This document shows positions 4,186-22,579 of a stretch of DNA of 34,585 bases, in pieces. How positions within the stretch are numbered: the stretch's first letter is position 1; every line of letters begins with the position of its first letter. Source of the DNA: Nocardioides sp. (lineage in GTDB: Bacteria > Actinomycetota > Actinomycetes > Propionibacteriales > Nocardioidaceae); contig JAOPXG010000264.1 of the NCBI GenBank assembly GCA_025965275.1, positions 1-34,585 of the forward strand. The letters run 5' to 3'. The position numbers and the translations under genes were made by a program. The notes under the pieces were generated by a model. That model saw only the letters and a program-made list of their open reading frames with translations, was not told where the DNA came from and searched no databases.

Positions 4186-4203
4186 AACCGACTCATCGGT
4201 CGG
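4186..4203 (+). promoter_or_regulatory. TetR-type operator, site 2 (E1-alpha operon)
   Basis: AACCGACTCATCGGTCGG matches the shared AACCGAC-N6-GTCGG pattern. It lies 17 nt upstream of the E1-alpha GTG and just before the AGGAGGAG ribosome site. I see no convincing -35/-10 pair upstream of it. The rest of the 180-bp divergent region (4041-4220) holds no gene. Confidence 0.7.
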
Positions 4204-4220
4204 GTCACAGGAGGAGAGTC

Positions 4221-5189
4221 GTGACTTCAACGCACGTGCCCGACCAGCGGACACGCCACGAGCATCTGATCGAGATCTACCGCAAGGTGGTCACGGTCAG
4301 GTTCGCCGAGCTGCGCATCCGCGGCCACGTCGAGGCCGAGGGCTTCGGCGGCTTCTGGCACCCGGGGATCGGGCAGGAGGGCCTGCAGGTCGGGGCGATC
4401 GCCGCGATGCAGCCCGCCGACTACCTCTACTACGCGCACCGCGGCTTGGGCTACGCCTACGCCAAGGGCATGGACCTCACGGCGCTCTTCGGCGACCTCC
4501 TCGGCCGCGCCGTCGGCAGCACCGGCGGCAAGGGCGGCGGCACCGTCCACTTCGCCAGCGCCGAGCACGGCGTGCTCGGCCAGGGCGGCACCCTGGGCTC
4601 CAACTTCGTGCTCGGCGCCGGCACGGCGCTTGCCTCGCAGCTCCTCGGTGACGGTCGGGTGACGGTCGTGTTCTTCGGTGACGGCGCCGCAGCGCGCGGC
4701 ACCTGGCACGAGGCCGCCATCCAGGCCTCGGTGTGGAAGCTGCCCGTCGTCTGGGTGTGCGAGAACAACGGGTGGGCGCTGTCGGCCCGCTTCGAGGACC
4801 AGAGTCCGACCCCGAACGTCGCCGACCGGGCGCCGGCGTACGGCATGCCGGGCGTGATCGTCGACGGCCAGGACGCGATGGCGGTCATGGACGTGACCGC
4901 CCAGGCGATCGACCGGGCCCGGCGCGGTGAGGGCCCGACCCTGATCGAGGCCAAGACGCTTCGCATCCGCGGCCACTACGAGGGCGACCGGCAGCCCTAC
5001 CGCCAGGACCAGGTCCAGGGCGACGAGATCCCGAACGACCCGGTGCACCGGCTCGGCGAGCACATCGCCGTCGAGGAACGACGGGCGATCGACGCCGAGG
5101 CGCGCCGGACCGTCGAGGAGGCGTTCGACGCCGCCCTGGCGGCACCCCGGCCGGACCGATCCGTGATCTTCGAGGACGTGTGGGCATGA
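4221..5189 (+). CDS. 2-oxoacid/acetoin dehydrogenase E1 component, alpha subunit
   Basis: Thiamine-diphosphate E1 alpha subunit of 322 aa. It forms the alpha2/beta2 E1 that decarboxylates a 2-oxoacid, or cleaves acetoin, and acylates the E2 lipoyl group. The ThDP/Mg motif runs from GDG (153-155) to NN (182-183) in FFGDGAAARGTWHE...VCENNGWALS. The phosphorylation-loop-like segment RIRGHYEGDRQPYR is also present. Length is close to acetoin dehydrogenase AcoA and shorter than typical pyruvate or branched-chain E1-alpha. The GTG at 4221 is preceded by AGGAGGAG, and the gene overlaps the next by 4 nt (ATGA). First gene of a four-gene operon under operator site 2. True substrate (acetoin-like diketone or 2-oxoacid) is undetermined. 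Confidence 0.92.
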   Translation: MTSTHVPDQRTRHEHLIEIYRKVVTVRFAELRIRGHVEAEGFGGFWHPGIGQEGLQVGAIAAMQPADYLYYAHRGLGYAYAKGMDLTALFGDLLGRAVGSTGGKGGGTVHFASAEHGVLGQGGTLGSNFVLGAGTALASQLLGDGRVTVVFFGDGAAARGTWHEAAIQASVWKLPVVWVCENNGWALSARFEDQSPTPNVADRAPAYGMPGVIVDGQDAMAVMDVTAQAIDRARRGEGPTLIEAKTLRIRGHYEGDRQPYRQDQVQGDEIPNDPVHRLGEHIAVEERRAIDAEARRTVEEAFDAALAAPRPDRSVIFEDVWA

Positions 5190-6196
5190 CGACGACACAG
5201 GCACCGCCGGCGACCGACCGGGTGACGAGCTACTCGCGCGCCATCAACGAGGCGCTGGCCGAGGAGATGCGTCGCGACGAGCGGGTCTTCATGATGGGCC
5301 AGGACATCGGCACCCTGGGTGGGGTCTTCGGGCTGACCCGCGGGCTGCAGGAGGAGTTCGGCCCGGTGCGGGTCCGCGACACCGCCATCAACGAGACGTT
5401 CATCGTGGGCGGCGCAGCCGGCGCCGCGCTGGGCGGCACCATCCCGGTCGTCGAGCTCCAGTTCGCCGACTTCCTGTTCACCGCGGCCGACGAGGTGTTC
5501 CACAAGCTCGCGAAGTGGCGCTACATGCACGGCGGTCAGTTCACGATGCCGGTCGTGGTGCGGCTGCCCAGCGGAGTGGTGGGCGGCGCCGGTGCCGAGC
5601 ACTCGCAGAGTCTCGAGACCATCGCCATGCACGTGCCCGGTCTCAAGGTGGCCGTCCCGGCGACCCCTGCGGACGCCAAGGGTCTGCTCAAGTCGGCGAT
5701 CCGCGACCCCAACCCGGTGCTCTTCTTCGAGCACAAGGGGCTCTACCGGATCAAGGGTCCCGTCCCGGAGTCGTCGGACGTGCTGGTGCCCTTCGGGTCC
5801 GCGCGGGTCGCCCGGTCCGGCACCAACCTGACCGTGGTCGCCACCGGCCTGATGCTCGGCCGTGCCCTGGAGGCCGCCGAGCAGCTGGCTCCCCGCGGCA
5901 TCGACATGGAGGTCATCGACCCGCGCACCCTGGTGCCCCTCGACATCGACACCATCGTCGCATCGGTCGAGAAGACGCACCGGCTGATGGTCGTCCACGA
6001 GGCTTCGCGGACAGCCGGCTTCGGTGCCGAGATCGCGACGCAGGTGCAGGAGCGGGCGTTCTTCTCCCTCGATGCACCGGTCTGGCGCGTCTGCGGCACG
6101 GACACCCCGCTGCCCCAGGACCCCGACCTCGAGCAGGCGTGCATCCCCTCGACCGACGACATCGTCACCGCGGCGCTCGCGCTCGCGGCCGTGTAG
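5186..6196 (+). CDS. 2-oxoacid/acetoin dehydrogenase E1 component, beta subunit
   Basis: Transketolase-like E1 beta subunit of 336 aa, the usual AcoB/PdhB length. The N-terminal pyrimidine-binding domain contains MMGQDIGTLGGVFGLT and the ThDP-activating glutamate in DTAINE; AGAEHSQS carries the conserved active-site His. The C-terminal transketolase domain runs from about residue 200 (LTVVATGLM) to GTDTPLPQDPDLEQ near the end. The ATG at 5186 is preferred over the GTG at 5180 because it makes a standard ATGA overlap with E1-alpha, implying translational coupling. Partner of the preceding E1-alpha and following E2. No E3 (dihydrolipoamide dehydrogenase) gene is in the window, so the complex would have to use one encoded elsewhere. 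Confidence 0.92.
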   Translation: MTTTQAPPATDRVTSYSRAINEALAEEMRRDERVFMMGQDIGTLGGVFGLTRGLQEEFGPVRVRDTAINETFIVGGAAGAALGGTIPVVELQFADFLFTAADEVFHKLAKWRYMHGGQFTMPVVVRLPSGVVGGAGAEHSQSLETIAMHVPGLKVAVPATPADAKGLLKSAIRDPNPVLFFEHKGLYRIKGPVPESSDVLVPFGSARVARSGTNLTVVATGLMLGRALEAAEQLAPRGIDMEVIDPRTLVPLDIDTIVASVEKTHRLMVVHEASRTAGFGAEIATQVQERAFFSLDAPVWRVCGTDTPLPQDPDLEQACIPSTDDIVTAALALAAV

Positions 6197-6204
6197 GAGC
6201 TGGC

Positions 6205-7947
6205 GTGGCAGAGGTGATGATGCCCCGGCTGGGCGTCTCCGTGACCGAGGGCACCCTCACGACCTGGCTGAAGGCCGTCGGCGACACCGTCGAGGTGGGT
6301 GAGCCGATCTGCGAGGTGGCGACCGACAAGGTCGACACCGAGATCGAGAGCACCGTCGCCGGGATCCTGGCCGAGCAGCGGTACGCCGAGGGCGAGGTCG
6401 TGCCCGTGGGCGAGCCCCTCGCGGTGGTGACGGTCGCCGGCGAGGCGTCGGCGCCGCCGCCGGCCCCGGCCCCGCCTCCGGTGCCCGTCGAGCCGCCCGC
6501 TCCGGTGGCCGTCGGGGAGCCCGACGTGGTGCCTGACGTGACCGCCGAGGTGCCGGCCGCCGGCAGTGGGCTGGTGCTGATGCCGCGGCTCGGGGTCTCG
6601 GTGACCGAAGGCACGGTCTCCACCTGGCTGAAGGCCGTCGGCGACGCCGTCGAGGTGGGGGAGCCGATCTGCGAGGTGGCGACCGACAAGGTCGACACCG
6701 AGATCGAGAGCACCGTCGCCGGGATCCTGGCCGAGCAGCGGTACGCCGAGGGCGACGTCGTGCCCGTGGGCGAACCCCTCGCGGTGGTCACGCCCGACGG
6801 TGTGGTTGCTGCCGCGGCGCCGGCGGCCCCACCTGTCCCGTCCTCGGTCGACCCCGAGCCGTACGCAGCGCGGGCGACCTCGACCGAACCGCTCCCGACC
6901 GAGCCGGGCGCGCCGGCCGAGCTGCGTCCCGGGCCCTTCGACCACACCGCCGCCGTGGCGCGGCTGCACGCCGGCATCGCCCGTTCGGGCCGCCCGGCGG
7001 TCTCGCCGGCTGCGCGGCGCCTCGCCGCCGACCTGGGCGTCGACCTCACGGGTGTGACCGGCACCGGCGGCGGCGGCCACGTCACCCGGGCCGACGTGCA
7101 GCAGCGGGCCACCGACTGGCCCGGTTCCCCGAATCCCCCCGCGACCCCGCGACCGGCGGCCGCACCCGCCCCGGCACCGGCCCCGCCATCCGCCCCGGTG
7201 GTGGCGCCCGGAGGACTGCCCCCGGGCTACGAGGACGTCCCGTTCGAGGAGATCGCGACCAGCCGGATCCGACGGGTCACCGCCGAGCACATGAGCCGGT
7301 CGCGGCGCACCGCCGCGCACATGACGACCGAGGTCGACGTCGACCTCGGGACGCTCACCGACGTCCGGGCCCGGATGAACGCCCGGCGCCAGGCGGACGG
7401 GCAGCCCAAGCTGTCGTTCCTGCCGTTCGTCGCCCGGGCCGCGTGCGCCGCCCTGCTCGAGCACCGCGACCTCAACGCGACGTTCGAGACCGAGCGTCTC
7501 CTGCGCTGGGGCGAGGTCAACCTCGGTATCGCCGTCGACACCCCGCGCGGGCTGATGGTCCCCGTCGTCCGCTCCGCCGAACGACTCACCGTCGAGTCGC
7601 TGGCGAGCAGCATCGTCGCCGCGGCGGAGCGGGTCCGCACCGGTCGGATGGAGGCCGACGACTTCCGCGCCGGCACCTTCACGATCAGCAACCCCGGCTC
7701 CGTCGGCGCGGTCTCGGCGCCGGCGATCATCAACCAGCCGCAGGTTGCCATCCTCGGGATGCCGACGATCGTGCGACGTCCGTGGGTCGTCCGTCTGTCC
7801 GACGGGCAGGAGACCATCGCGATCCGGCCGATCGTCCGGCTCGCCCTCACCTTCGACCACCGAGCCGTCGACGGCGCCGACGCGACCCGCTGCCTGGTCG
7901 ACATCGGCCGACGCCTCGAGGCGTGGGGAGCCGATGACTATCGGTGA
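6205..7947 (+). CDS. Dihydrolipoamide acyltransferase (E2) with two lipoyl domains
   Basis: E2 core of the 2-oxoacid/acetoin dehydrogenase, 580 aa. Domain order: lipoyl 1 (1-77, lipoyl Lys K42 in ATDKVDTEIES), Pro/Ala/Val-rich linker, lipoyl 2 (about 121-197, K162 in the same sequence), linker, E3/E1-binding domain (about 263-300, RPAVSPAARRLAADLGVDL), a Pro/Ala linker, and the catalytic acyltransferase domain (about 345-580) with the HxxxDG motif HRAVDG (H552, D556). The GTG at 6205 is chosen because MAEVMMPRLGVSVTEG is the family N-terminus and AGGAG lies 5 nt upstream; the longer ORF call from 5515 reads through E1-beta in another frame. The two lipoyl domains are almost identical at DNA level, suggesting recent duplication or gene conversion. 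It overlaps the next gene by 14 nt. Confidence 0.94.
   Translation: MAEVMMPRLGVSVTEGTLTTWLKAVGDTVEVGEPICEVATDKVDTEIESTVAGILAEQRYAEGEVVPVGEPLAVVTVAGEASAPPPAPAPPPVPVEPPAPVAVGEPDVVPDVTAEVPAAGSGLVLMPRLGVSVTEGTVSTWLKAVGDAVEVGEPICEVATDKVDTEIESTVAGILAEQRYAEGDVVPVGEPLAVVTPDGVVAAAAPAAPPVPSSVDPEPYAARATSTEPLPTEPGAPAELRPGPFDHTAAVARLHAGIARSGRPAVSPAARRLAADLGVDLTGVTGTGGGGHVTRADVQQRATDWPGSPNPPATPRPAAAPAPAPAPPSAPVVAPGGLPPGYEDVPFEEIATSRIRRVTAEHMSRSRRTAAHMTTEVDVDLGTLTDVRARMNARRQADGQPKLSFLPFVARAACAALLEHRDLNATFETERLLRWGEVNLGIAVDTPRGLMVPVVRSAERLTVESLASSIVAAAERVRTGRMEADDFRAGTFTISNPGSVGAVSAPAIINQPQVAILGMPTIVRRPWVVRLSDGQETIAIRPIVRLALTFDHRAVDGADATRCLVDIGRRLEAWGADDYR
6301..6432 (+). repeat. Lipoyl-domain repeat, copy 1
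   Basis: Direct repeat with 6661-6792, offset exactly 360 bp (120 codons). By eye 129 of 132 bases match, with mismatches at 6396, 6414 and 6429; 6301-6395 is identical over 95 bp. Weaker similarity continues upstream to about 6217. Confidence 0.9.
6661..6792 (+). repeat. Lipoyl-domain repeat, copy 2
   Basis: Second copy of the 6301-6432 repeat, encoding the second lipoyl domain of the E2. Synonymous positions are conserved along with coding ones, so selection on the protein alone does not explain the match. Confidence 0.9.
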
Positions 7948-9001
7948 ACGGGTCCTGGGCGTCACCCTGCCGTTCGACGACGTGCCGCTCCACGCCCACC
8001 GGCCGCTGCTGCGTGCCCTGGTCGCCGGCGGCTACGACGAGATCTGGACCGGCGAGGTAGCCGGGACCGACGGCTTCGGGCCGCTGCTGCTCTTCCGCGG
8101 CTGGGAGGAGGGCATCACCGTCTCCTGCGCGGCGGCGAGCGTGTTCACCCGCGGTCCGGCCGTGCTCGCGATGACCGCCGCGACCCTGGCCGAGGCCGCC
8201 CCCGGCCGCTGCCGGTTCGGGATCGGTGCCGGGTCGCCGGTCCTCGCCGAGACCTGGAACGGCGTGCCGTTCGAGCGGCCCTACCAGCGGGTGGTCGACA
8301 CCGTCCGCTTCCTGCGCCGGACGCTGGCAGGGGAGAAGGCGGAGGACCTGCCGACCGTGCACGGCGCCGGCTTCAAGCTGGCCCGGCCGGTCGAGGTGCC
8401 GCCCCGCCTGCTGGTGGCTGTGGCGGGGCCGCGGATGCAGGACTTCGCCGCGGCGGAGGCCGACACGATGGCGCTGAACTTCCTGTCGGCCGCCGACGTC
8501 GCGACGATCCGGGCGCGCACCGCCGGCATCGCCCGGGTCGTGCCCACGCCCCTCGAGACCGCCGTCCGGGTCTTCCTGGTGCCGGGGGAGGGGCCCGCCG
8601 CGGAAGCGGTAGCCCGGCGCTTCCTGGCCGGATACCTGACGGTGCCGACGTACGCCGCCTTCCAGAACTGGCTCGGGCGCGAGGAGGTCCTGGCACCGAT
8701 GAACGCAGCGTGGCAGGCCGGTGACCGCCGTGCCGCGATGGCGGCCGTGCCCGACGAGGTGCTGCACGAACTCGTCGTCTTCGGCACGCCCGCCGAGTGC
8801 GCGCGCTCGGTCGACCTCTACCTCGACGCGGGCGCCGACGTGGTGACGCTGGCCCTGCTCCCCGACGCCGACGGGGTCGACCCGATGGCCCGGGTGGAGT
8901 TCCTCACCCAGCTGGCGGCGGAGCGAGGCCGGGCTCAGGCCTCAGGAGGCGTCGCCCGGCCGAAGGGGACGGTCCCGAGCTCGTCGGTGCCGAGCCCGTA
9001 G
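7934..9001 (+). CDS. LLM-class (luciferase-like) flavin/F420-dependent oxidoreductase
   Basis: TIM-barrel oxidoreductase of the bacterial luciferase-like superfamily, 355 aa; actinobacterial members often use F420 or FMN to oxidise or reduce small organic molecules. Family features: the N-terminal strand LGVTLPFDD, GYDEIWTGEVAGTDGF, FTRGPAVLAMTAATLAEAAPGRCRFGIGAGSP, the GVPFERPYQRVVDTVRFLR helix, and PPRLLVAVAGPRM. Which cofactor is used cannot be read from sequence. The ATG at 7934 has GGGGAG just upstream and overlaps the E2 stop by 14 nt, so it is the last gene of the E1/E2 operon. Its 3' end overlaps the convergent tetR by 67 bp; the last roughly 20 residues (Gly/Pro/Ser-rich) look like read-through beyond the conserved domain. 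Confidence 0.88.
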   Translation: MTIGERVLGVTLPFDDVPLHAHRPLLRALVAGGYDEIWTGEVAGTDGFGPLLLFRGWEEGITVSCAAASVFTRGPAVLAMTAATLAEAAPGRCRFGIGAGSPVLAETWNGVPFERPYQRVVDTVRFLRRTLAGEKAEDLPTVHGAGFKLARPVEVPPRLLVAVAGPRMQDFAAAEADTMALNFLSAADVATIRARTAGIARVVPTPLETAVRVFLVPGEGPAAEAVARRFLAGYLTVPTYAAFQNWLGREEVLAPMNAAWQAGDRRAAMAAVPDEVLHELVVFGTPAECARSVDLYLDAGADVVTLALLPDADGVDPMARVEFLTQLAAERGRAQASGGVARPKGTVPSSSVPSP

Positions 9002-9588
9002 ATCAGGTAGTTCCAGAACTGGTAGGCGATCTCGCGCGACCGCAGCGCTCCTCCGGGGCGGTACCACTGGTAGGCCCAGTTGCACATCCCGAACGTCGCG
9101 AGCGTGGCGAGGTGCGCGTCGGTCTGGCGCAGCACCCCCATCGCCATGCCCTCGGCGATGAGGTCCTCGACGATCTTCTCGTAGTGGTCGCGCTTGATCC
9201 GGATCGGCCCGCGCGCCTCCGAAGGGAGCTCACGGTGGTGCTCGAAGAACACCCGCACGTGACCGCGGTGGGTCTCCATCAGCTCGAGGATGTCGGCCAT
9301 CGCCTCGAGCAGCAGCTGCTCGGGCCGCAGGCCGGTGCCGGCACGGGCCTCGTGCCGGCTGATGAGCAGGTCGATGAACTCCTCGTGGATCGCGTGGAGG
9401 ATGTCGTCCTTGCTCGGGAAGTAGTGGTACAGCGTCGGCTTCGCGACACCGACCTCACGCGCGATGTCGTCCATCGTGGTGTTGGAGTAGCCACTCTGGT
9501 CGAACAGGCCGGCAGCCAGGGAGATGATCTGCTGCCGTCGTTCCGCGGGGGACATGCGGCGTCGAGCCGCCCGCTCAGCTGTCTTCAC
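8935..9588 (-). CDS. TetR/AcrR family transcriptional regulator
   Basis: One-domain DNA-binding repressor type, 217 aa. The N-terminal helix-turn-helix (about residues 18-64) shows QIISLAAGLFDQSGY, TTMDDIAREVGVAKPTLYHYF and PSKDDIL, a textbook TetR pattern. The ligand-binding C-terminal domain has AMADILELMETHRGHVRVFFEHHREL and ends in a helical dimer region. The GTG at 9588 is chosen over the ATG at 9627 because GGAAGGAAGG precedes it and the 13 extra residues are not TetR-like. It lies between the two arms of the catabolic block, diverges from arm 2 and has operator site 3 about 60 nt upstream. Autoregulation and control of all four operators is therefore the simplest reading. The inducer is unknown; an acyl-CoA intermediate is plausible. 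Confidence 0.93.
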   Translation of the reverse strand: MKTAERAARRRMSPAERRQQIISLAAGLFDQSGYSNTTMDDIAREVGVAKPTLYHYFPSKDDILHAIHEEFIDLLISRHEARAGTGLRPEQLLLEAMADILELMETHRGHVRVFFEHHRELPSEARGPIRIKRDHYEKIVEDLIAEGMAMGVLRQTDAHLATLATFGMCNWAYQWYRPGGALRSREIAYQFWNYLIYGLGTDELGTVPFGRATPPEA

Positions 9589-9650
9589 GCAGGATCCCTT
9601 CCTTCCATGCCGCAGCGTACGCGGCAACGGTGCCGTGGTGGTGCCGATTC

Positions 9651-9670
9651 AACCGACCAGCGGGTCGGTT
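9651..9670 (-). promoter_or_regulatory. TetR-type operator, site 3 (tetR promoter)
   Basis: AACCGACCAGCGGGTCGGTT: two perfect 8-base arms around a 4-base centre, the longest arms of the four sites. It lies 62 nt upstream of the tetR GTG, consistent with autoregulation. Confidence 0.75.
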
Positions 9671-9807: not shown

Positions 9808-9836
9808 TTGACAGTGTGACCGCGGTTACTTAGGTT
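9808..9836 (+). promoter_or_regulatory. Promoter of the 16-gene arm-2 operon
   Basis: A perfect -35 TTGACA, 17-nt spacer and -10 TAGGTT. The expected start is near 9843, so operator site 4 (9847-9864) covers the first transcribed bases. This is the best sigma-70-type promoter in the window. Confidence 0.75.
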
Positions 9837-9846
9837 CCTCGGTACC

Positions 9847-9864
9847 AACCGACCGACGAGTCGG
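9847..9864 (+). promoter_or_regulatory. TetR-type operator, site 4 (arm-2 promoter)
   Basis: AACCGACCGACGAGTCGG, again AACCGAC-N6-GTCGG, just downstream of the predicted start site and 20 nt before the first ATG of arm 2. Its placement suits repression. Confidence 0.75.
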
Positions 9865-9884
9865 GTGGCTACAGGAGGAAGTTC

Positions 9885-10475
9885 ATGGTCGACCGACCTG
9901 ACGTGTCGCTCGGGATCCGCCGTACGGCGTCCGGGGTCGTGCTCGTCGACCGGTCCTGTGACGACTGCGCTTCCTGCGCCGCCGGCGCGACCCTGTGGTG
10001 CGCCCGCCCCGATCCCGAGGGGCGGGACCTGACGGCGGTTTTCGCAGTCGAGCGGGCCGACGTCCTGGTCACCGCGCTCACCGCAGCGGCGGCTCTCGCC
10101 GAGGCCCCCGCGACCTCGACGGTCCTGGTGGTCGGCGACGAGGACGGTCCGCTGGCGACTCTCGTGCGGGCGCTCGTGCCGACGCGGGTCCTGGTGAGCC
10201 CAGACCCTTTCGATGCCACCACCAAGGCGGCGCTGGGCGACCTGGAGCCGTCCGGGCGCGCCCCGGTCGTCGTTGCCGGGGCGGACGCGCGGGCCGCGGT
10301 CAAGGCGGTCCGGCGCGGCGGACACGTGTGCGTCGGGCTCCCGGACGCGCGGATGCCCAGCGTCACCGAGCTCGTGCAGCGCGAGGTGACGCTCGTCGGC
10401 CCCCGGGACGTCGCCGGCACGGTCCGGCGCCTCGGTGAGCCGGCCTGGGCGGCAGCGGTCTCGGCAGCGGCCTGA
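9885..10475 (+). CDS. Truncated MDR-like protein with structural-zinc motif
   Basis: 196-aa protein that I recognise only in part. C25-x2-C28-x2-C31-x7-C39 has exactly the spacing of the structural-zinc lobe of medium-chain dehydrogenases (compare C88/C91/C94/C102 in the MDR at 19289). After it come a Rossmann-like stretch (STVLVVGDEDGPLATLVRAL, about 78-97) and MDR-like strands ending in RRGGHVCVGLPDARM and LVQREVTLVGPRDVAGTV. The N-terminal GroES-like catalytic domain with the GHE zinc motif is absent, and the GxGxxG dinucleotide loop is altered (VVGDEDG). The ATG at 9885 follows AGGAGG. It leads the arm-2 operon and precedes the cyclase. A non-catalytic subunit, a zinc-bound scaffold or a decayed enzyme are all possible; intact frame and first position argue against simple decay. 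Confidence 0.7.
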   Translation: MVDRPDVSLGIRRTASGVVLVDRSCDDCASCAAGATLWCARPDPEGRDLTAVFAVERADVLVTALTAAAALAEAPATSTVLVVGDEDGPLATLVRALVPTRVLVSPDPFDATTKAALGDLEPSGRAPVVVAGADARAAVKAVRRGGHVCVGLPDARMPSVTELVQREVTLVGPRDVAGTVRRLGEPAWAAAVSAAA

Positions 10476-10545: not shown

Positions 10546-11559
10546 ATGGGTCGTACCGCAGATGGAAAGTGGTCGGACGAGTGGACTCCGCCCGTCTTCT
10601 CGGTGGACGCCAATGGCAAGGTCATCGGCTACGTCAACGACCGGACCCCGAACAACTGGGGCCGGTGGGGTGACCTCGACGAGAAGGGCACCGCGAACCT
10701 GCTGACACCCGAGCGGGTGGCGGCGGCGGCGAAGCTGATCGAGACCGGCAAAGTCGTCAGCTGCGCCATCCCGCTCGACAGCAGCGGTCCGGTACACCCG
10801 ACCCGCACCGGCGTCGTGCACCTCTACGGCTACACGGGCTCCGACTTCGTCGCCGGCACCAAGGCCGGCCAGGACTACCCGAACTTCCAGGGCACCGACG
10901 ACTACATCTTCATGCCGCTCCAGGGCAGCACGCAGTGGGACGGCCTGTCGCACTTCTTCTACAAGGACACCATGTTCAACGGCTTCTGGATCGGCAACGT
11001 CGAGTCCTACGCCGGTGCCCGCCGAGGCTCGATCCACCAGATGAAGGACACCCTGGTCGGTCGCGGTGTGCTGCTCGACCTCCCGCGGTTCAAGGGAGTC
11101 GACCGCCTGCAGCCGAAGTACGGCATCACGCCCGACGACCTCGACGAGTGCGCGAAGGCGCAGGGCGTCGAGATCGGTGAGGGCGACATGCTGGTCATCC
11201 GGACCGGTCACGTGCCCTGGTACTACCAGCTCGAGGACAAGATGGAGTACTGGAAGGTCGGCGCCCCGGGCATCACCCGCGCGGTCGTGGACTGGCTGGC
11301 GGACAAGGACGTGGCATCCCTGGCGATGGACAACATCGCGGTCGAGGTCGAGCCCCACGAGGAGCCCTTCGAGCACGTCTACCCGCTGCACGCGCGGCTG
11401 ATCCGTGACCTCGGCCTCACCCTCGGCGAGGTGTGGTGGCTGGAGGACCTGGCCGACACCTGCGCCGAGCTGAACCGCTACGAGTTCTTCCTGTCGGCCC
11501 CGCCCCTGAACGTGACCAACGCGTCGGGCTCCCCGGCGAACCCGGTCGCGGTCTTCTGA
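10546..11559 (+). CDS. Cyclase family protein (PF04199-like), variant metal site
   Basis: 337-aa member of the cyclase/kynurenine-formamidase-like superfamily, which hydrolyses amide or C-C bonds of cyclic or aryl substrates with a metal. The family motif HxGTHxDxPxH appears here as QGSTQWDGLSH (126-136): spacing 0/4/6/10 is kept, but the first two His ligands are Gln (Q126, Q130), while D132 and H136 remain. Later conserved stretches are GVLLDLPRFKG (start of the C-terminal half), GDMLVIRTGHVPWYY and DNIAVEVEPHEEPFEHVYPLHARLIRDLG. The ATG at 10546 follows AGGAGG by 11 nt. Similar TQWDG variants exist in fungal and actinobacterial homologues as I recall them, so this is a subfamily rather than a damaged enzyme. 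Reaction and metal are unknown. Confidence 0.85.
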   Translation: MGRTADGKWSDEWTPPVFSVDANGKVIGYVNDRTPNNWGRWGDLDEKGTANLLTPERVAAAAKLIETGKVVSCAIPLDSSGPVHPTRTGVVHLYGYTGSDFVAGTKAGQDYPNFQGTDDYIFMPLQGSTQWDGLSHFFYKDTMFNGFWIGNVESYAGARRGSIHQMKDTLVGRGVLLDLPRFKGVDRLQPKYGITPDDLDECAKAQGVEIGEGDMLVIRTGHVPWYYQLEDKMEYWKVGAPGITRAVVDWLADKDVASLAMDNIAVEVEPHEEPFEHVYPLHARLIRDLGLTLGEVWWLEDLADTCAELNRYEFFLSAPPLNVTNASGSPANPVAVF

Positions 11560-11593: not shown

Positions 11594-11624
11594 GTTCCAC
11601 CCAGCACGTCTCCACGAGGTAGGT

Positions 11625-13208
11625 ATGGACACCACACTGCAGGATCGCGAGCTCTCCCGGAGCCGACGGCTCGTCCTGGGCGAGATCCTGGCCCGCAACG
11701 CGCGCCGCGAGCCCGACCGCACCGCGCTGGTCTTCGGCGAGGACGCCCTGACCTTCGCCGAGCTCGACACCCGGGCCAACCGGCTCGCCAACGCCCTCTC
11801 GGGCAGGGGCGTGGGTCGCGGCGACCAGGTCGCCGTGCTGATGTACAACAGCCTCGAGGTCATCGAGTCGTTCTTCGCCTGCCAGAAGCTCGGCGCCTGC
11901 CCTGTGCCGGTCAACTTCCGGCTGGCGCCGAGCGAGCTCGCCTACATCCTCGAGGACTCCGAGTCGGTGGCGGTGCTCACCGACGGCCAGCTGACCTCGC
12001 TGGCCCTCGAGGCGACCGCCGGCCTCGACGCCGTACGCCTCGTCGTGACGACCGGCGAGGTCGTACCCGGCTCGGAGTCCTACGAGGAGCTCCTGGCGAG
12101 CGGCACCGCCGACGCGCCCGACGTCGACGTCCACGAGGACGACCTCGCGTTCCTCATGTACACGTCCGGCACGACCGGACGGCCCAAGGGCGCGATGCTC
12201 ACCCACCAGAACCTGGTCGCCAACACGATCAACTGGTCGATCGAGATGGAGGCCCGGCCGGGCGACGTCTGGCTCTCCGGGCTGCCGCTCTTCCACATCG
12301 GCGGCGTCAACGGCGTGCTCCCGTTCATCTACGTCGCCGGCACCTGCATCATCACGCCGTCGACCAACTTCGACCCGCTCGAGTCGCTGAGGCTGCTCGA
12401 GAAGCACCGCGCCACGATGTGCTACTTCGTGCCGACGCAGTGGCAGCAGATCTGCTCGCTGCCGGAGGCGGCCGAGGTCGACACGTCGGTGCTCCGACGG
12501 GCGCTGTGGGGAGCCTCGCAGGCTCCGCCGAGCACGCTCGAGCTGCTGGTGAAGACCTTCCCGTCGGTCGGCATCGTGAACGCCTTCGGACAGACCGAGA
12601 TGTCGTCCAACACGTGCTTCCTCAAGGCCGACGACGCGGTCCGCAAGATGGGCTCGGTCGGACTCCCCGCCGTCAACGTCGAGGTGCGGATCGTCGACGA
12701 CGAGGGCAACGACGTGGCCGTCGGCGAGGTGGGGGAGATCGTCTACCGCGGGCCGACGGTGATGAAGGGCTACTACAAGAAGGAGGAGGCGACTGCCGAC
12801 GCCTTCCGGGGTGGCTGGTTCCACAGCGGCGACCTGGTCCGCCAGGACGACGAGGGCTTCATCTACGTCGTCGACCGCGTCAAGGACATGATCATCAGCG
12901 GCGGCGAGAACATCTACCCCGCCGAGGTCGAGCGCGCGGTCGAGCGGCACCCCGCGATCCGCGAGGTCGCGGTCATCGGCGTGCCGCATCCGCGCTGGGT
13001 CGAGACTCCGGTCGCGGTGGTGGTCGCGGACGGCCCGCAGCACCCTGACCAGGCCGCGGTCCTCGAGTTCATCAAGTCCGACCTGGCGTCCTACAAGAAG
13101 CCCTCCGCCGTCGTGTACGTCGACGAGCTCCCGCGCAACGCCTCCGGCAAGGTCCTCAAGCGCACCCTGCGCGACAGCTACGAGCACCTCTTCGAGGAGC
13201 GCGCGTGA
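11625..13208 (+). CDS. Acyl-CoA synthetase (AMP-binding), paralog 1
   Basis: ANL-superfamily ligase of 527 aa, which activates a carboxylic acid as acyl-AMP and transfers it to CoA. The P-loop-like motif YTSGTTGRPKG is at 179-189, then LFHIGGVNGVLPF, the acyl-AMP motif NAFGQTEMSS, the hinge-region Asp/Arg segment HSGDLVRQDDEGFIYVVDRVKDMI, and the catalytic C-terminal lysine K509 in NASGKVLK. This layout matches FadD-type fatty/aromatic/alicyclic acid CoA ligases. The ATG at 11625 is chosen because the conserved N-terminus (LGEILARNARREPDRTALV) starts just after; a weak AGGTAGG lies upstream. It overlaps paralog 2 by 4 nt, so the two are probably translationally coupled. Acid substrate unknown. 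Confidence 0.92.
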   Translation: MDTTLQDRELSRSRRLVLGEILARNARREPDRTALVFGEDALTFAELDTRANRLANALSGRGVGRGDQVAVLMYNSLEVIESFFACQKLGACPVPVNFRLAPSELAYILEDSESVAVLTDGQLTSLALEATAGLDAVRLVVTTGEVVPGSESYEELLASGTADAPDVDVHEDDLAFLMYTSGTTGRPKGAMLTHQNLVANTINWSIEMEARPGDVWLSGLPLFHIGGVNGVLPFIYVAGTCIITPSTNFDPLESLRLLEKHRATMCYFVPTQWQQICSLPEAAEVDTSVLRRALWGASQAPPSTLELLVKTFPSVGIVNAFGQTEMSSNTCFLKADDAVRKMGSVGLPAVNVEVRIVDDEGNDVAVGEVGEIVYRGPTVMKGYYKKEEATADAFRGGWFHSGDLVRQDDEGFIYVVDRVKDMIISGGENIYPAEVERAVERHPAIREVAVIGVPHPRWVETPVAVVVADGPQHPDQAAVLEFIKSDLASYKKPSAVVYVDELPRNASGKVLKRTLRDSYEHLFEERA

Positions 13209-17445: not shown

Positions 17446-18454
17446 CACGGCCTCAGTGTCCGAGCCGCAGGTGGCCGGACCACGCCGACAGACGTCGGCC
17501 AGCGATCGCCTCATCGACGTGGCGAGCCGCTACGGCACCATCGTCAGCCTGGTCGTGTGCGTGCTGATCTTCAGCGCGCTCCGCCCCGACGTCTTCGCCA
17601 CCACCCAGAACTTCCTCAACATCCTCAACCAGGTCTCGATCCTCGGCATCATCGCGCTCGGTCTCACCGTCGCGCTGGTCCAGGGGCTGTTCGACCTCAG
17701 CCTCGCCTCGATGGCGACGCTCGGCGGTTTCATGGTCACGAAGTGGCTCGCCGAGGGCACGATCAGCAGTCCCGTGCTGGCGGTCGTCCTCATGCTGCTG
17801 GTCGCGCTGGTGATCGGCTGCCTCAACGGCATCGTGGTCGCGTACGGCGGGGTGTCGGCGTTCATCGCCACGCTCGCGGTCGGCTCGATCCTCACCGGCG
17901 TGGTGCTCGGCATCTCGAAGTCGGCGACGATCCTGTCGGGCATCCCCGACGGCTTCCTGGTCATGGGTCAGGGGAAGGTCGGCCCGGTCCCGGCGCCGGT
18001 CGTCTTCCTGGCGATCGTCGCGGTGCTGCTCTACGTCTTCTTGGAGCAGACGCAGGTCGGCCGGCACATGTACGCGATCGGCGGCAACGCCGAGACCGCC
18101 CGGCTCTCCGGCATCGCGGTCAAGCGCTACGCCCTGATCGCGCTCGGCATCTCGGCGATGTGCGCCGCGCTCGGCGGCATGATCGTGGCCGCCAACCTCG
18201 GCGTCGGCCGGCCCCAGGGGGTGGGGGACACCTATCTCCTCGACTCGTTCGCGGCCGCCTTCATCGGTGCGTCCACGCTGCGCCCGGGCCGCTTCCACAT
18301 CATCGGCACCGTCATCGGCGTCCTCCTGATCGGCGTGATCAACAACGGCCTGTCCATCATGGGCGTCGAGACGTTCTGGCAGTACGCCGTGCGCGGCATG
18401 ATCCTGCTGCTCGCGGTCTTCGGGGCCAGCTTCCTGGTGGCGAGGCGCCGATGA
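17438..18454 (+). CDS. Ribose-type ABC importer, permease
   Basis: RbsC-like inner-membrane permease of 338 aa with about eight to ten hydrophobic segments, starting with IVSLVVCVLIFSALRP after a 30-residue cytoplasmic N-terminus. Family hallmarks: NFLNILNQVSILGIIALGLT, GLFDLSLASMATLGG, the GGNAETARLSGIAVKRY coupling-loop segment and LRPGRFHIIGTVIGVLLIGVINNGL. The GTG at 17438 has GGGAGGA upstream and overlaps the ATPase gene; its stop overlaps the SDR start (ATGA). The importer genes sit between activation and dehydrogenase genes in one operon, which ties uptake to this pathway. Confidence 0.93.
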   Translation: MTSTASVSEPQVAGPRRQTSASDRLIDVASRYGTIVSLVVCVLIFSALRPDVFATTQNFLNILNQVSILGIIALGLTVALVQGLFDLSLASMATLGGFMVTKWLAEGTISSPVLAVVLMLLVALVIGCLNGIVVAYGGVSAFIATLAVGSILTGVVLGISKSATILSGIPDGFLVMGQGKVGPVPAPVVFLAIVAVLLYVFLEQTQVGRHMYAIGGNAETARLSGIAVKRYALIALGISAMCAALGGMIVAANLGVGRPQGVGDTYLLDSFAAAFIGASTLRPGRFHIIGTVIGVLLIGVINNGLSIMGVETFWQYAVRGMILLLAVFGASFLVARRR

Positions 18455-19287
18455 GCGACGAAGGCTCCCCGCGCGTCGTCGTCCTGACCGGCGGCGCCCG
18501 CGCCGGCGGCATGGGCCGGGCGATCGCGGAGTCCTTCCTCCGGCTCGGCGACGTGGTCGTCCTGTCGGACGTCGGCCAGCCGCTGTCCAGCCACCCCGAC
18601 TACGAGGTGGCGCCCCCCGACCACCTGCGCCAGGCCGCGGCCGAGTTGGCCGGGCTCGGCCCGGTGCTGCCGGTCGCCTGCGACGTCACCGACGAGGCCC
18701 AGGTGGTCGCGCTCTTCGACCGTGCGGTCGACGAGCACGGCCGGGTCGACGTCGTCGTCAACTGCGCCGGCCTCGCGATCGGGCTCTCCCCGGTGACCGA
18801 GCTGACGCTGCGCGACTGGCAGGTCAACATCGACGTGATGGCGACCGGCGCCTTCCTGGTGGCGCGGGAGGCCGCCCGCCGGATGGTGCCGCAGGGCTCG
18901 GGCCGGATCATCACCATCGCCTCCCAGGCCGGCAAGACGGGGATGCCGCTGCTGGCGGCGTACTCGGCCGCGAAGTTCGCGGTGATCGGGCTGACGCAGA
19001 GCATGGCCGGCGAGCTCGGCGAGCACGGCGTCACCGTCAACGCGATCTGCCCCGGCACCATCGACACCCCGTTGCTCGCGGTGAAGGGCGGCGTCTACGA
19101 GACCTTCTCGGGCGCCGCGGGCCGCACCGAGGAGGACTACCGGCGCCGGCTGGCCCGGCAGATCCCGGCCCGCCGGTTCGGCACCCCGCAGGACATCGCG
19201 GCGGCCGCGGTCTACCTCGCTTCGGAGGGCGGCTCGTTCGTGACGGGCGAGGCGCTCAACGTCACCGGCGGCCAGGAGATGCACTGA
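18451..19287 (+). CDS. Short-chain dehydrogenase/reductase, SDR 1
   Basis: Classical-type SDR of 278 aa that would oxidise an alcohol or reduce a ketone with NAD(P). The dinucleotide loop is TGGARAGGMG (13-22), an expanded TGxxxGxG. NCAG (104-107) and the catalytic S158-Y171-K175 triad (IASQAG... YSAAK) are present. The C-terminal region ends FVTGEALNVTGGQEMH, the usual SDR finish. An insert after strand 2 (QPLSSHPDYEVAPPDHLRQ) lengthens it beyond the average 250 aa. The start overlaps the permease stop (ATGA), so it is co-translated with the importer; the MDR gene begins 1 nt after its stop. Likely acts on the imported compound or an early hydroxyl intermediate (inference). Confidence 0.91.
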   Translation: MSDEGSPRVVVLTGGARAGGMGRAIAESFLRLGDVVVLSDVGQPLSSHPDYEVAPPDHLRQAAAELAGLGPVLPVACDVTDEAQVVALFDRAVDEHGRVDVVVNCAGLAIGLSPVTELTLRDWQVNIDVMATGAFLVAREAARRMVPQGSGRIITIASQAGKTGMPLLAAYSAAKFAVIGLTQSMAGELGEHGVTVNAICPGTIDTPLLAVKGGVYETFSGAAGRTEEDYRRRLARQIPARRFGTPQDIAAAAVYLASEGGSFVTGEALNVTGGQEMH

Positions 19288-19288
19288 C

Positions 19289-20284
19289 GTGAAGGGTGTC
19301 GTCTTCCACGGTCCGGGCGTGGTCAGCACCGAGGACCTCGACCTCCCGCCGGTCGGTCCGACCGACGTGGTGCTCGAGGTGGAGGCCTGCGGTGTCTGCG
19401 GGTCCGACCTCGCGTCCTACGCCCACGGCCACTACGTCGAGGCGGGTCAGGTGATGGGCCACGAGATGTCGGCCGTCGTCGTCGACCGCGGTGCAGGGCT
19501 CGCGGGGCTGTCCGTCGGGCAGCGGGTCGCGGTCCGGCCGATGCGGTCGTGCGACGCGTGCGCCTACTGCCGGGCGGGCGACACCCACCTGTGCGGATCG
19601 ACGTACGGCCGCTCGCTCGGGTACGGCGTGCCGGGCGGCTTCGCCCAGCGGCTGCACCTGGCCGACGTCGTGGTCGGGCGTGACGTGGTGCCGGTGCCGG
19701 CCGAGGTCGACCCGTTCGACCTGCTGTGGGCCGAGCCGCTCGCGGTCGCCCTGCACGCGCTCGGCCTCGCCGGTGGCGCCGGGATCTCCCGGCTCCTCGT
19801 CACCGGCGCCGGCGCCGTCGGGCTGTCGGTCACGGCCGCCGCGGTCGCCGAGGGCGTCGCGGTCGACGTGGTCGAGCCCGTCACCGAGCGTCGGGAGGCG
19901 GCCCGCGAACTGGGTGCGGGCGCCTGGGCCCCGGGAGAGCTGCCCGCGGAGCCGACGTACGACGCCCTCGTGGACGCCTCCGGCGTGCCGGCGGCGGTCG
20001 AGGCGGCGCTCCCGTTGCTGTACCCGCCGGCGACGGTGGTGCTCGTCGGCCTCAACGACGCGCCCGTGCCGTGGCCGCTGGGGGCCCACCGGGTCACCGG
20101 GGCCTTCGGCTACCGCGACGCCGACTTCGCGCGCGCCGTCGAGCTGGTCGCCACCGGGCAGGTCTCCCTCGGAGGCCTGGTCACCCACCGATACGCCCTC
20201 GAGGAGGCGGACCGAGCACTCGCAGCACCCCGGCCGGAGGACAACGTCGTCAAGGCCGCGCTCGTCCCGAACCCCCTGTCCTGA
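19289..20284 (+). CDS. Zinc-dependent alcohol dehydrogenase (MDR family)
   Basis: Complete medium-chain dehydrogenase of 331 aa. Catalytic zinc ligands are visible as C37 (ACGVCGSD) with GHE (57-59) and E149 (WAEPLAVALHA). The structural zinc lobe is C88/C91/C94/C102. The Rossmann loop is GAGAVG (173-178). It resembles threonine/sorbitol/2,3-butanediol-type dehydrogenases acting on secondary alcohols. The GTG at 19289 follows the SDR stop by one base, with AGGAG about 10 nt upstream. It contrasts with the truncated relative at 9885, which retains only the zinc lobe and a Rossmann-like part. The specific substrate is not predictable. Confidence 0.92.
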   Translation: MKGVVFHGPGVVSTEDLDLPPVGPTDVVLEVEACGVCGSDLASYAHGHYVEAGQVMGHEMSAVVVDRGAGLAGLSVGQRVAVRPMRSCDACAYCRAGDTHLCGSTYGRSLGYGVPGGFAQRLHLADVVVGRDVVPVPAEVDPFDLLWAEPLAVALHALGLAGGAGISRLLVTGAGAVGLSVTAAAVAEGVAVDVVEPVTERREAARELGAGAWAPGELPAEPTYDALVDASGVPAAVEAALPLLYPPATVVLVGLNDAPVPWPLGAHRVTGAFGYRDADFARAVELVATGQVSLGGLVTHRYALEEADRALAAPRPEDNVVKAALVPNPLS

Positions 20285-20340
20285 TCTCGATGGTGCCGAC
20301 GACGCCGTCCGCGCTCGCTTGCACCCCTAGGAGAACCCAC

Positions 20341-21126
20341 ATGAATGCAGCACCACGATCCGAACCGGTGACCTTCGACTTCACCGGACGACGGGTCTGG
20401 GTCACCGGCGCCAGCCGGGGACTGGGCCGGGCCATGGCCCTGGGCTTCGCCGCGGCGGGTGCCGACGTCGCCCTCACGGCCCGGACCGCGGACGCCGTGC
20501 AATCGGTGTCCGCCGAGGCCGAGGCGCTGGGCGCCAAGACGCTGGTGCTGCCGGCGTCGGTCTCCGACCCGGCCGCGGTCACCGGTGCGGTCGCCGACAT
20601 CGCCGCCGCGTGGGGAGGCCTGGACGTCCTGGTCAACTGCGCCGGGGTGAGCCCGACGTTCAAGCGCGCCGAGCTCGTGGAGGACGAGGAGTGGCGGCAC
20701 GTGCTCGACGTGAACGTCACCGGCTCCTTCATCTGCGCGCGCGAGGCCGGCCGGCTGATGCTCGACGCCGGGAGCGGCGCCATCGTCAACGTGTCGAGCA
20801 TCCACGGCCAGGTCGGCATGGAGCGGATGGCGGCCTACAGTGCGAGCAAGGGTGCGGTCGACGCGCTGACCCGCACGCTCGCGCTGGAGTGGGCCGGCCG
20901 TGGGGTCCGGGTCAACACGCTGTCGCCCGGCTACTTCGAGACCGACATGACCGAGGCCCTGCGCGGCCACAAGAAGTGGCGGGGCCACCTGCTCTCGCGG
21001 ATCCCGCTCGGTCGCTTCGGCGTCCCTGAGGAGCTGGTCTCCGCCGCGCTCTTCCTGTCGTCGGACGCCTCCGGTTTCATCACCGGGTCGAACCTCGTCG
21101 TGGACGGTGGCTGGACCGCGGCATGA
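20341..21126 (+). CDS. Short-chain dehydrogenase/reductase, SDR 2
   Basis: Classical SDR of 261 aa, standard length. TGASRGLG (22-29) binds NAD(P), NCAG (99-102) supports the fold, and the catalytic residues are S153, Y166 and K170 (VNVSSIHG... YSASK). It ends with FITGSNLVVDGGWTAA. The ATG at 20341 has AGGAG upstream and is preferred over the track's longer frame, which reads through the MDR gene. The similarity to FabG and gluconate-5-dehydrogenase-like SDRs is typical of enzymes on hydroxyacyl-CoA or cyclic alcohols. Its stop overlaps the nitroreductase start (ATGA). Confidence 0.92.
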   Translation: MNAAPRSEPVTFDFTGRRVWVTGASRGLGRAMALGFAAAGADVALTARTADAVQSVSAEAEALGAKTLVLPASVSDPAAVTGAVADIAAAWGGLDVLVNCAGVSPTFKRAELVEDEEWRHVLDVNVTGSFICAREAGRLMLDAGSGAIVNVSSIHGQVGMERMAAYSASKGAVDALTRTLALEWAGRGVRVNTLSPGYFETDMTEALRGHKKWRGHLLSRIPLGRFGVPEELVSAALFLSSDASGFITGSNLVVDGGWTAA

Positions 21127-21797
21127 CCGGTGACCAGGCGGACATCTGGGAGTCGCTCTACACGACGCGCGCGATGCGGCGGATGCGACCGGACCCCGTG
21201 CCGATCGACGTGCAGGCGCGGATCCTGGACGCGGCGATCCGCGCCCCCAGCGGCGGGGACAGCCAGCCGTGGCGGTTCCTGTTGGTCGACGACGCCGACG
21301 TGAAGGCCCGGCTGGCGGCGCCGTACCGCGAGTCGATCGCCCTGCTGTGGCGCGGCCACTACGCCGACCAGGTCGCCGCGGCCGCGGCCGACCCGGAGGC
21401 ACCGGCGTCGCAACGCTTCCTCAAGCTGCAGTCGAGCGTGCAGTACCTCGCCGACCACTTCGAGGAGGTACCGCTGCTGCTCTTCGCCTTCTCGCGCAAC
21501 GATCGCGACGGCGGCTCCATCTTCCCGGCCGTGTGGAGCGCGATGCTCGCCGCCCGGGCCCAGGGCGTGGGCAGCGCGCTCACCAACGTGCTCGACATCT
21601 TCCGTCCCGACACCACCCGCGCCGTCCTCGGCGTGCCGCCCGACCGCGGTTGGCAGCTCAAGGCCACCGTGGCGATGGGCTACCCGAAGGGCCGCTGGGG
21701 GGTCGCCGCACGGCAGCCCGCGCACGCCGTCACCTACCGCAACACCTGGGGCGCGGACGCCGGCTTCACCGTCGACCAGCCGCTGTGGTCGCCATGA
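21123..21797 (+). CDS. Nitroreductase family FMN protein
   Basis: 224-aa flavoprotein of the nitroreductase superfamily, which uses FMN and NAD(P)H to reduce or dehydrogenate varied organic substrates. FMN-binding features are TTRAMRRMRPDPV near the N-terminus, APSGGDSQPWRF (about 40-51), AVWSAMLAARAQGVGSALTNV and the C-terminal MGYPKGRWG. A long middle insertion (residues 60-110) with YRESIALLWRGHYADQ covers the usual lid region. Starts and stops overlap both neighbours, so translation is coupled from SDR 2 through the ADC-fold genes. In this context a role on an enone or ring intermediate is more likely than on a nitro compound (inference). Confidence 0.87.
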   Translation: MTGDQADIWESLYTTRAMRRMRPDPVPIDVQARILDAAIRAPSGGDSQPWRFLLVDDADVKARLAAPYRESIALLWRGHYADQVAAAAADPEAPASQRFLKLQSSVQYLADHFEEVPLLLFAFSRNDRDGGSIFPAVWSAMLAARAQGVGSALTNVLDIFRPDTTRAVLGVPPDRGWQLKATVAMGYPKGRWGVAARQPAHAVTYRNTWGADAGFTVDQPLWSP

Positions 21798-22579
21798 TGC
21801 CGATCGCGGCGCCGCTCTACCCGCCGCCGCCCTACGAGTTCCGTGCCGCTCGCCAGACCTGGGTCGTCTACGAGGCCGAGCCGTCGCAGATCGCGCCACT
21901 GCTGCCGGACGGCGTGCGGATCGACGGCGACCCGGCGATCTGCGCTGCCTGGGCCTGTCACTACCCGGCATCGAGCTTCGGTCCCTATCTCGAGGCGTAC
22001 GTCGTCGTGCGGGTCGAGGTGGCGGGGGAGCGGTTCTGGTACCAGCCGGTGATCGTGACCGACGCCGAGGCGCCGATGGCCGCGGGCCGCGAGGTGTGGG
22101 GCTACGGCAAGAAGCTCGCGCACATCACCTGGTCGGACCGGGGCTCCGGCGGGCCGGGCACCGAGCAGCTCGTGATGACCGTGGAGCGGCCGCGCGGGGT
22201 GCGCCTGATGACGCTGTCGATGCTGCCCGATCGGATGGTCGACGGGCCCGAGCTGATGTCGTCGGAGGCCGCCGAGCCGCTGCCGACCCTGAGCCACCGG
22301 GTGATCCCGGCCTCGGAGGCCGGAGCTCCGCCGCTGGTCGACGAGCTGGTCGCGGTCGACGTGCGCCCCCGGTCGCACCGCGGCGCCGACGGCCGGCTGG
22401 AGCTCTGGCGCGGCCGGGGCGCCGTCGAGCTGGGCTCGGGGAGCGCAGCCGACCCGTGGCACGTCTTCCGGCCCACCCGGGTGCTCGACGCGTTCAGTGC
22501 GTGCACCGACTTCGTGCTTCCCCAGGGTCGCGTGGTGCCCCGGGGCCCGACCACCACTGCACCAGCACCCGAGGAGTGA
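21794..22579 (+). CDS. Acetoacetate decarboxylase family protein 1
   Basis: 261-aa ADC-fold protein. The Schiff-base lysine region reads GREVWGYGKKLAH (K106/K107), matching the family pattern GRE-x-(W/F)-G-(Y/F)-P-K-K-L except that the usual Pro is Gly. Family flanks such as YVVVRVEVAGERFWYQPVIVTDAEAPMAAGRE are clear. True family members decarboxylate beta-ketoacids; ADC-like homologues catalyse aldol, dehydration or hydrolase reactions. The ATG at 21794 overlaps the nitroreductase stop; the second ATG at 21797 is equally possible. The C-terminal tail is Pro/Thr-rich. It is paired with a second, divergent ADC-fold gene immediately downstream. Confidence 0.88.
   Translation: MMPIAAPLYPPPPYEFRAARQTWVVYEAEPSQIAPLLPDGVRIDGDPAICAAWACHYPASSFGPYLEAYVVVRVEVAGERFWYQPVIVTDAEAPMAAGREVWGYGKKLAHITWSDRGSGGPGTEQLVMTVERPRGVRLMTLSMLPDRMVDGPELMSSEAAEPLPTLSHRVIPASEAGAPPLVDELVAVDVRPRSHRGADGRLELWRGRGAVELGSGSAADPWHVFRPTRVLDAFSACTDFVLPQGRVVPRGPTTTAPAPEE

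Follow-up and report, generated by a model that had tools for sequence, protein, structure and literature searches.

A short zinc-MDR homologue without a GroES-like domain, linked to one SDR and one full-length MDR in Nocardioides, as a possible non-catalytic dehydrogenase subunit

We analyzed a 34,585-nucleotide stretch of Nocardioides sp. DNA (contig JAOPXG010000264.1; here called the window) in which positions 9885 to 10475 (+ strand) encode a 196-amino-acid protein, mini-MDR (MDRl), belonging to a family of short proteins with the structural-zinc lobe and Rossmann-like domain of zinc-dependent MDRs. In every arrangement of the locus that we found, the gene is accompanied by the same short-chain dehydrogenase (SDR1) and the same full-length MDR. 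We judge the chances to be roughly even that mini-MDR is a non-catalytic accessory subunit of an SDR/MDR dehydrogenase unit, derived from a zinc MDR.

Architecture and homology of mini-MDR

The mini-MDR reading frame begins with ATG and is intact, and a ribosome site (AGGAGG, positions 9873 to 9878) is followed six bases on by the start codon. An N-terminal beta hairpin leads into a Cys4 zinc lobe (amino acids 25 to 39), a linker helix, and a Rossmann-like domain (amino acids ~79 to 194). The four cysteine codons lie within positions 9957 to 10001 (+ strand) in the spacing C25-x2-C28-x2-C31-x7-C39, and the predicted lobe would be expected to bind zinc. Coordinates, length, start codon, ribosome site, and cysteine spacing agreed in full with the original prediction. 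That prediction had also called the protein "zinc-lobe-only." The lobe was found as described, but "only" understated the protein: the Rossmann-like domain is whole and confidently predicted by AF2, with alternating beta and alpha elements, and most of the invariant residues other than cysteine sit within it (RGG 144-146 and LVQR 163-166; G124 and A138 are invariant as well; 16-member alignment).

Single-sequence searches of Pfam, NCBIfam, and the PDB with mini-MDR returned no ADH signal. In contrast, a profile built from the family alignment matched PDB alcohol dehydrogenases (E = 9e-5), both in the zinc lobe and over the Rossmann part. When profiles were compared with each other, the co-encoded full MDRs scored an E value of 7e-5 at a probability of only 62%; with the divergent L045 branch, the figures were 1e-5 and 82%. 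The AF2 model of mini-MDR alone was confident (pLDDT = 93.4, pTM = 0.88), and its best PDB matches by Foldseek were zinc ADH/MDR structures (E = 8e-6, query TM of about 0.55, high rmsd); among the matches listed below an E value of 1e-3, all had the MDR fold and nearly all were zinc ADH/MDR. The high rmsd is consistent with a zinc lobe that, in the model, is placed differently following loss of the catalytic domain. The L045-branch model was weaker (pLDDT = 69) but still matched MDRs. Matches of mini-MDR to Penicil_amidase, Sir2, and a designed TIM barrel were weak and at odds with the fold, and were rejected. Profile, AF2 model, and Foldseek all place a Cys4 lobe ahead of a Rossmann domain, as in homologous zinc MDRs.

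With the polyol/threonine/alcohol dehydrogenase branch of zinc MDRs (PF08240 plus PF00107), mini-MDR shares the Cys4 lobe with identical spacing, the lobe-then-Rossmann order, and the RGG and LVxRE positions. However, it measures about 190 to 220 amino acids across the family rather than about 330 to 370, and it has lost the GroES-like domain, the catalytic zinc ligands, the GxGxxG motif, and the last C-terminal segment of the catalytic domain. No PF08240 match reached the cutoff in mini-MDR, and the homologues are of similarly short length. The L045 gene overlaps the gene before it, so that no space is left for a GroES-like domain. None of the catalytic zinc ligands of zinc MDR enzymes were found in mini-MDR. 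The window protein carries VVGDEDGPLATL in place of GxGxxG, which is absent from most members, with a partial GxG only in L045 and L068 (GSGVV/GTGAV). Judged by these motifs, mini-MDR is probably without dehydrogenase catalysis. The expectation of a zinc lobe and a degenerate Rossmann part without a GroES domain was upheld by profile, model, structural matches, and short homologues alike.

As the homologue of active enzymes that lacks catalytic residues and is under selection, mini-MDR resembles pseudoenzymes, which PMC5106787 and PMC10211241 describe as enzyme folds without catalytic residues kept by selection. Unlike the pseudoenzymes described there, mini-MDR misses an entire catalytic domain, not residues alone. 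We found no description of an MDR without a GroES domain in the open-licence literature.

Family membership and selection

To determine how widely mini-MDR is conserved, we searched for homologues in Nocardioides and in a sample of genomes from its order, class, and phylum. Fifteen homologues are as short in architecture as the window protein, have uninterrupted frames, and keep each of its four cysteines; those from genomes of the genus measure about 190 to 210 amino acids. The cysteines are therefore invariant in 16/16 aligned members, down to 26 to 27% identity, although L051 and L052 are 97% identical and hence not independent. Neither full-length MDR homologues with a truncation local to the window nor a loss of cysteine conservation, either of which would have spoken against the original prediction, was observed. 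A first contig scan with the single mini-MDR sequence found nothing, whereas a scan with the alignment recovered members. They occur in Nocardioides abyssi, N. deserti, N. oceani, and Nocardioides sp. J54, as well as in a Marmoricola MAG, an Actinomycetota MAG, and an uncultured-bacterium bin. No further members turned up in the wider samples, and the family therefore appears narrow within the limits of that sampling. Matches near an E value of 1e-4 in those genomes lay in longer open frames, mostly at the zinc lobe, and were taken as a group to be full MDRs or chance; L054 (a Brevibacterium MAG) was a false match whose open reading frame is SnoaL-like. A plasmid search gave no match.

We calculated pairwise dN/dS with our own NG86 script for the 14 closest pairs of each gene. 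Values were 0.03 to 0.51 for mini-MDR and 0.05 to 0.33 for the full MDR; those of the PF04199 "cyclase" family hydrolase encoded next to mini-MDR did not exceed 0.11. Mini-MDR is constrained, yet the least so of the three, and it evolves fastest among the operon proteins compared. With intact frames in its homologues and dN/dS below 1, the gene looks functional, as had been argued from its sequence. The rate contrast within one operon is sharp: the cyclase (10546 to 11559) reaches 96% identity between species where the adjoining mini-MDR reaches 49 to 60%.

Operon context and gene linkage

Mini-MDR proved to be the first gene after a divergent TetR-type promoter, as anticipated. A promoter-like TTGACA-17-TAGGTT (9808 to 9836, + strand) can be read upstream, followed by an operator-like palindrome (ACCGACCGACGAGTCGGG, 9848 to 9865) that is kept upstream of mini-MDR in type A loci (see below). 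A second operator-like palindrome (ACCGACCAGCGGGTCGGT, 9652 to 9669) lies in the promoter region of tetR, which encodes a divergent TetR-family regulator (8935 to 9627, − strand). A third ACCGAC...GTCGG palindrome lies at 4187 to 4204, before the E1-alpha gene; all three have the form ACCGAC-N6-GTCGG, and similar sites occur in related loci. These sites suggest that a single TetR controls the mini-MDR and E1/E2 operons as well as its own gene. The E1/E2 operon encodes 2-oxoacid-dehydrogenase-like E1-alpha and E1-beta, then a lipoyl/E2-like frame (4221 to 7947); an E1-beta homologue is linked in type D loci too.

Downstream of mini-MDR on the + strand lie the PF04199 hydrolase, whose close ortholog is linked in the type A operon only, and acyl-CoA ligase A (11622 to 13208), a relative of which also adjoins mini-MDR in L051 and L052. 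SDR1 (18451 to 19287) and the full-length zinc MDR (19289 to 20284) are the constant companions. The latter has its structural cysteines intact at residues 88, 91, 94, and 102 (spacing 2-2-7), in keeping with the expected full MDR of the same spacing 9.4 kb downstream. The operon goes on (20326 to 22579) with SDR2, a nitroreductase-family protein, and an acetoacetate-decarboxylase-family protein. Because the neighbors include an importer, several dehydrogenases, the PF04199 hydrolase, acyl-CoA ligases, and 2-oxoacid-dehydrogenase-like E1/E2, they suggest a pathway in which a polar cyclic or vicinal diol is oxidized and cleaved.

Four arrangements of the locus were distinguished: type A (the window and eight other genomes; divergent tetR, then mini-MDR, cyclase, two acyl-CoA ligases, a sugar-type ABC importer, SDR1, MDR, and SDR2), type B (L043 and L011; mini-MDR, SDR1, MDR, and tetR), type C (L051 and L052; mini-MDR, ligase, SDR1, and MDR), and type D (L045, L068, and L069; importer, mini-MDR, SDR1, MDR, and E1-beta). 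Mini-MDR, SDR1, and MDR are the only genes common to all four, and their linkage persists throughout. The proposed linkage to the cyclase held in the type A operon but not elsewhere; SDR1 and the full MDR are the partners to which mini-MDR is linked throughout. Across 219 genomes of the genus, 13 carry the MDR ortholog (E at most 1e-50), and 13/13 of these carry mini-MDR in the same cluster. No mini-MDR without MDR was found in the genus genomes by a search profile that missed two type D copies and that a divergent orphan could escape. Trees of mini-MDR, SDR1, and MDR give the same four groups. The co-occurrence of the three genes may reflect linkage, through joint inheritance or cluster transfer, rather than independent gain.

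In G897, one of the 13 genomes, a deletion (L044:7758-8539) fuses the interior of the mini-MDR gene to that of the full MDR gene with loss of the intervening genes; this type A copy is broken, and the genome retains a second, intact type D locus. In L043 (8291 to 9995), two SDR1-like copies stand in tandem beside mini-MDR (one genome).

Proposed role and alternatives

In the xylitol dehydrogenase tetramer, the zinc lobe is a major inter-dimer contact and a Rossmann strand makes the dimer; in MDRs that have a structural zinc lobe, its removal has been described as costing stable folding or activity (PMC9895041). Because mini-MDR retains these contact parts without the catalytic part, we favor a subunit of the MDR, or else of SDR1, that serves for contact only. 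Without the GroES-like domain, the protein would lack a catalytic zinc site and a substrate pocket; without GxGxxG, it would lack canonical NAD(P) binding. The retained lobe and Rossmann sheet would correspond to the two subunit-contact surfaces of polyol-type MDRs. The most likely partner would be the co-encoded full MDR at 19289, possibly with SDR1 as well; binding of mini-MDR could form, stabilize, or regulate a mixed dehydrogenase complex for consecutive oxidations in the catabolic pathway. That the family is intact, under selection, and found next to a single SDR and a single full MDR suggests a non-catalytic partner subunit and speaks against a broken gene. Three points count against a subunit: the full MDR and SDR1 retain their own active-site motifs, so that neither has an obvious need for a helper; fast evolution is unusual for an obligate interface; and the co-occurrence may in part stem from a cluster inherited or transferred as a whole.

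A precedent is BbsCD, reported as a heterotetrameric SDR with inactive pseudoenzyme subunits (von Horsten et al., cited in PMC10818641). The likeness is that a catabolic operon encodes a non-catalytic dehydrogenase homologue together with an active one; BbsCD, however, is an SDR, and the companion here is a truncated MDR in a putative complex. The fuller proposal, that a protein made of MDR contact surfaces alone brings a full MDR together with an SDR in one mixed complex for consecutive oxidations, would be a new kind of assembly, and we hold it only tentatively, as improbable on balance. A natural lobe-plus-Rossmann protein without catalysis would show that the two parts are self-sufficient, both in folding and in making contacts. 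The strict pairing of mini-MDR with one SDR and one MDR raises the question of whether MDRs have dedicated inactive subunits.

Alternatively, the partner could be SDR1 and not the MDR, with mini-MDR serving that enzyme as an accessory or assembly factor. Mini-MDR lies directly upstream of SDR1, overlapping its start by 4 bp, in L043, L045, and L068, and SDRs with inactive subunits are known, BbsCD being the precedent. We nevertheless consider this unlikely, since the fold and zinc lobe are of the MDR type, known MDR contacts are MDR to MDR, and neither the window operon nor type C has mini-MDR next to SDR1. Somewhat less likely still is a stand-alone zinc sensor, redox switch, or regulator responding to a small molecule or to NAD(H) level, and not a subunit at all. 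Its position at the head of the window operon next to tetR, the Cys4 site, and the partial GxG of the L045/L068 branch would fit such a role, but the examined stretches of types C and D hold no homologue of the window TetR, and most members lack GxGxxG.

The invariant residues outside the zinc site could instead mean that the Rossmann domain carries a new active site, making mini-MDR an enzyme in itself; we think this quite improbable, because RGG and LVxRE are ordinary structural positions of MDRs too and the catalytic domain, catalytic zinc ligands, and cofactor motif are gone. Rapid evolution and the broken L044 copy might point to a decaying gene or truncated pseudogene, a very slim prospect given dN/dS below 1, 16 intact copies, invariant cysteines, strict co-occurrence, and an L044 break caused by a deletion that reached beyond mini-MDR and took out most of the operon. 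The least probable reading, scarcely credible, is that the cysteines carry an iron-sulfur cluster, as weak Pfam matches to the NADH_4Fe-4S region in five members (best E = 0.036) might hint: NuoF-like 4Fe-4S domains have C-x2-C-x2-C with a distant fourth cysteine, whereas in all mini-MDRs the fourth cysteine follows at x7, the 2-2-7 spacing of MDR structural zinc, within an MDR fold.
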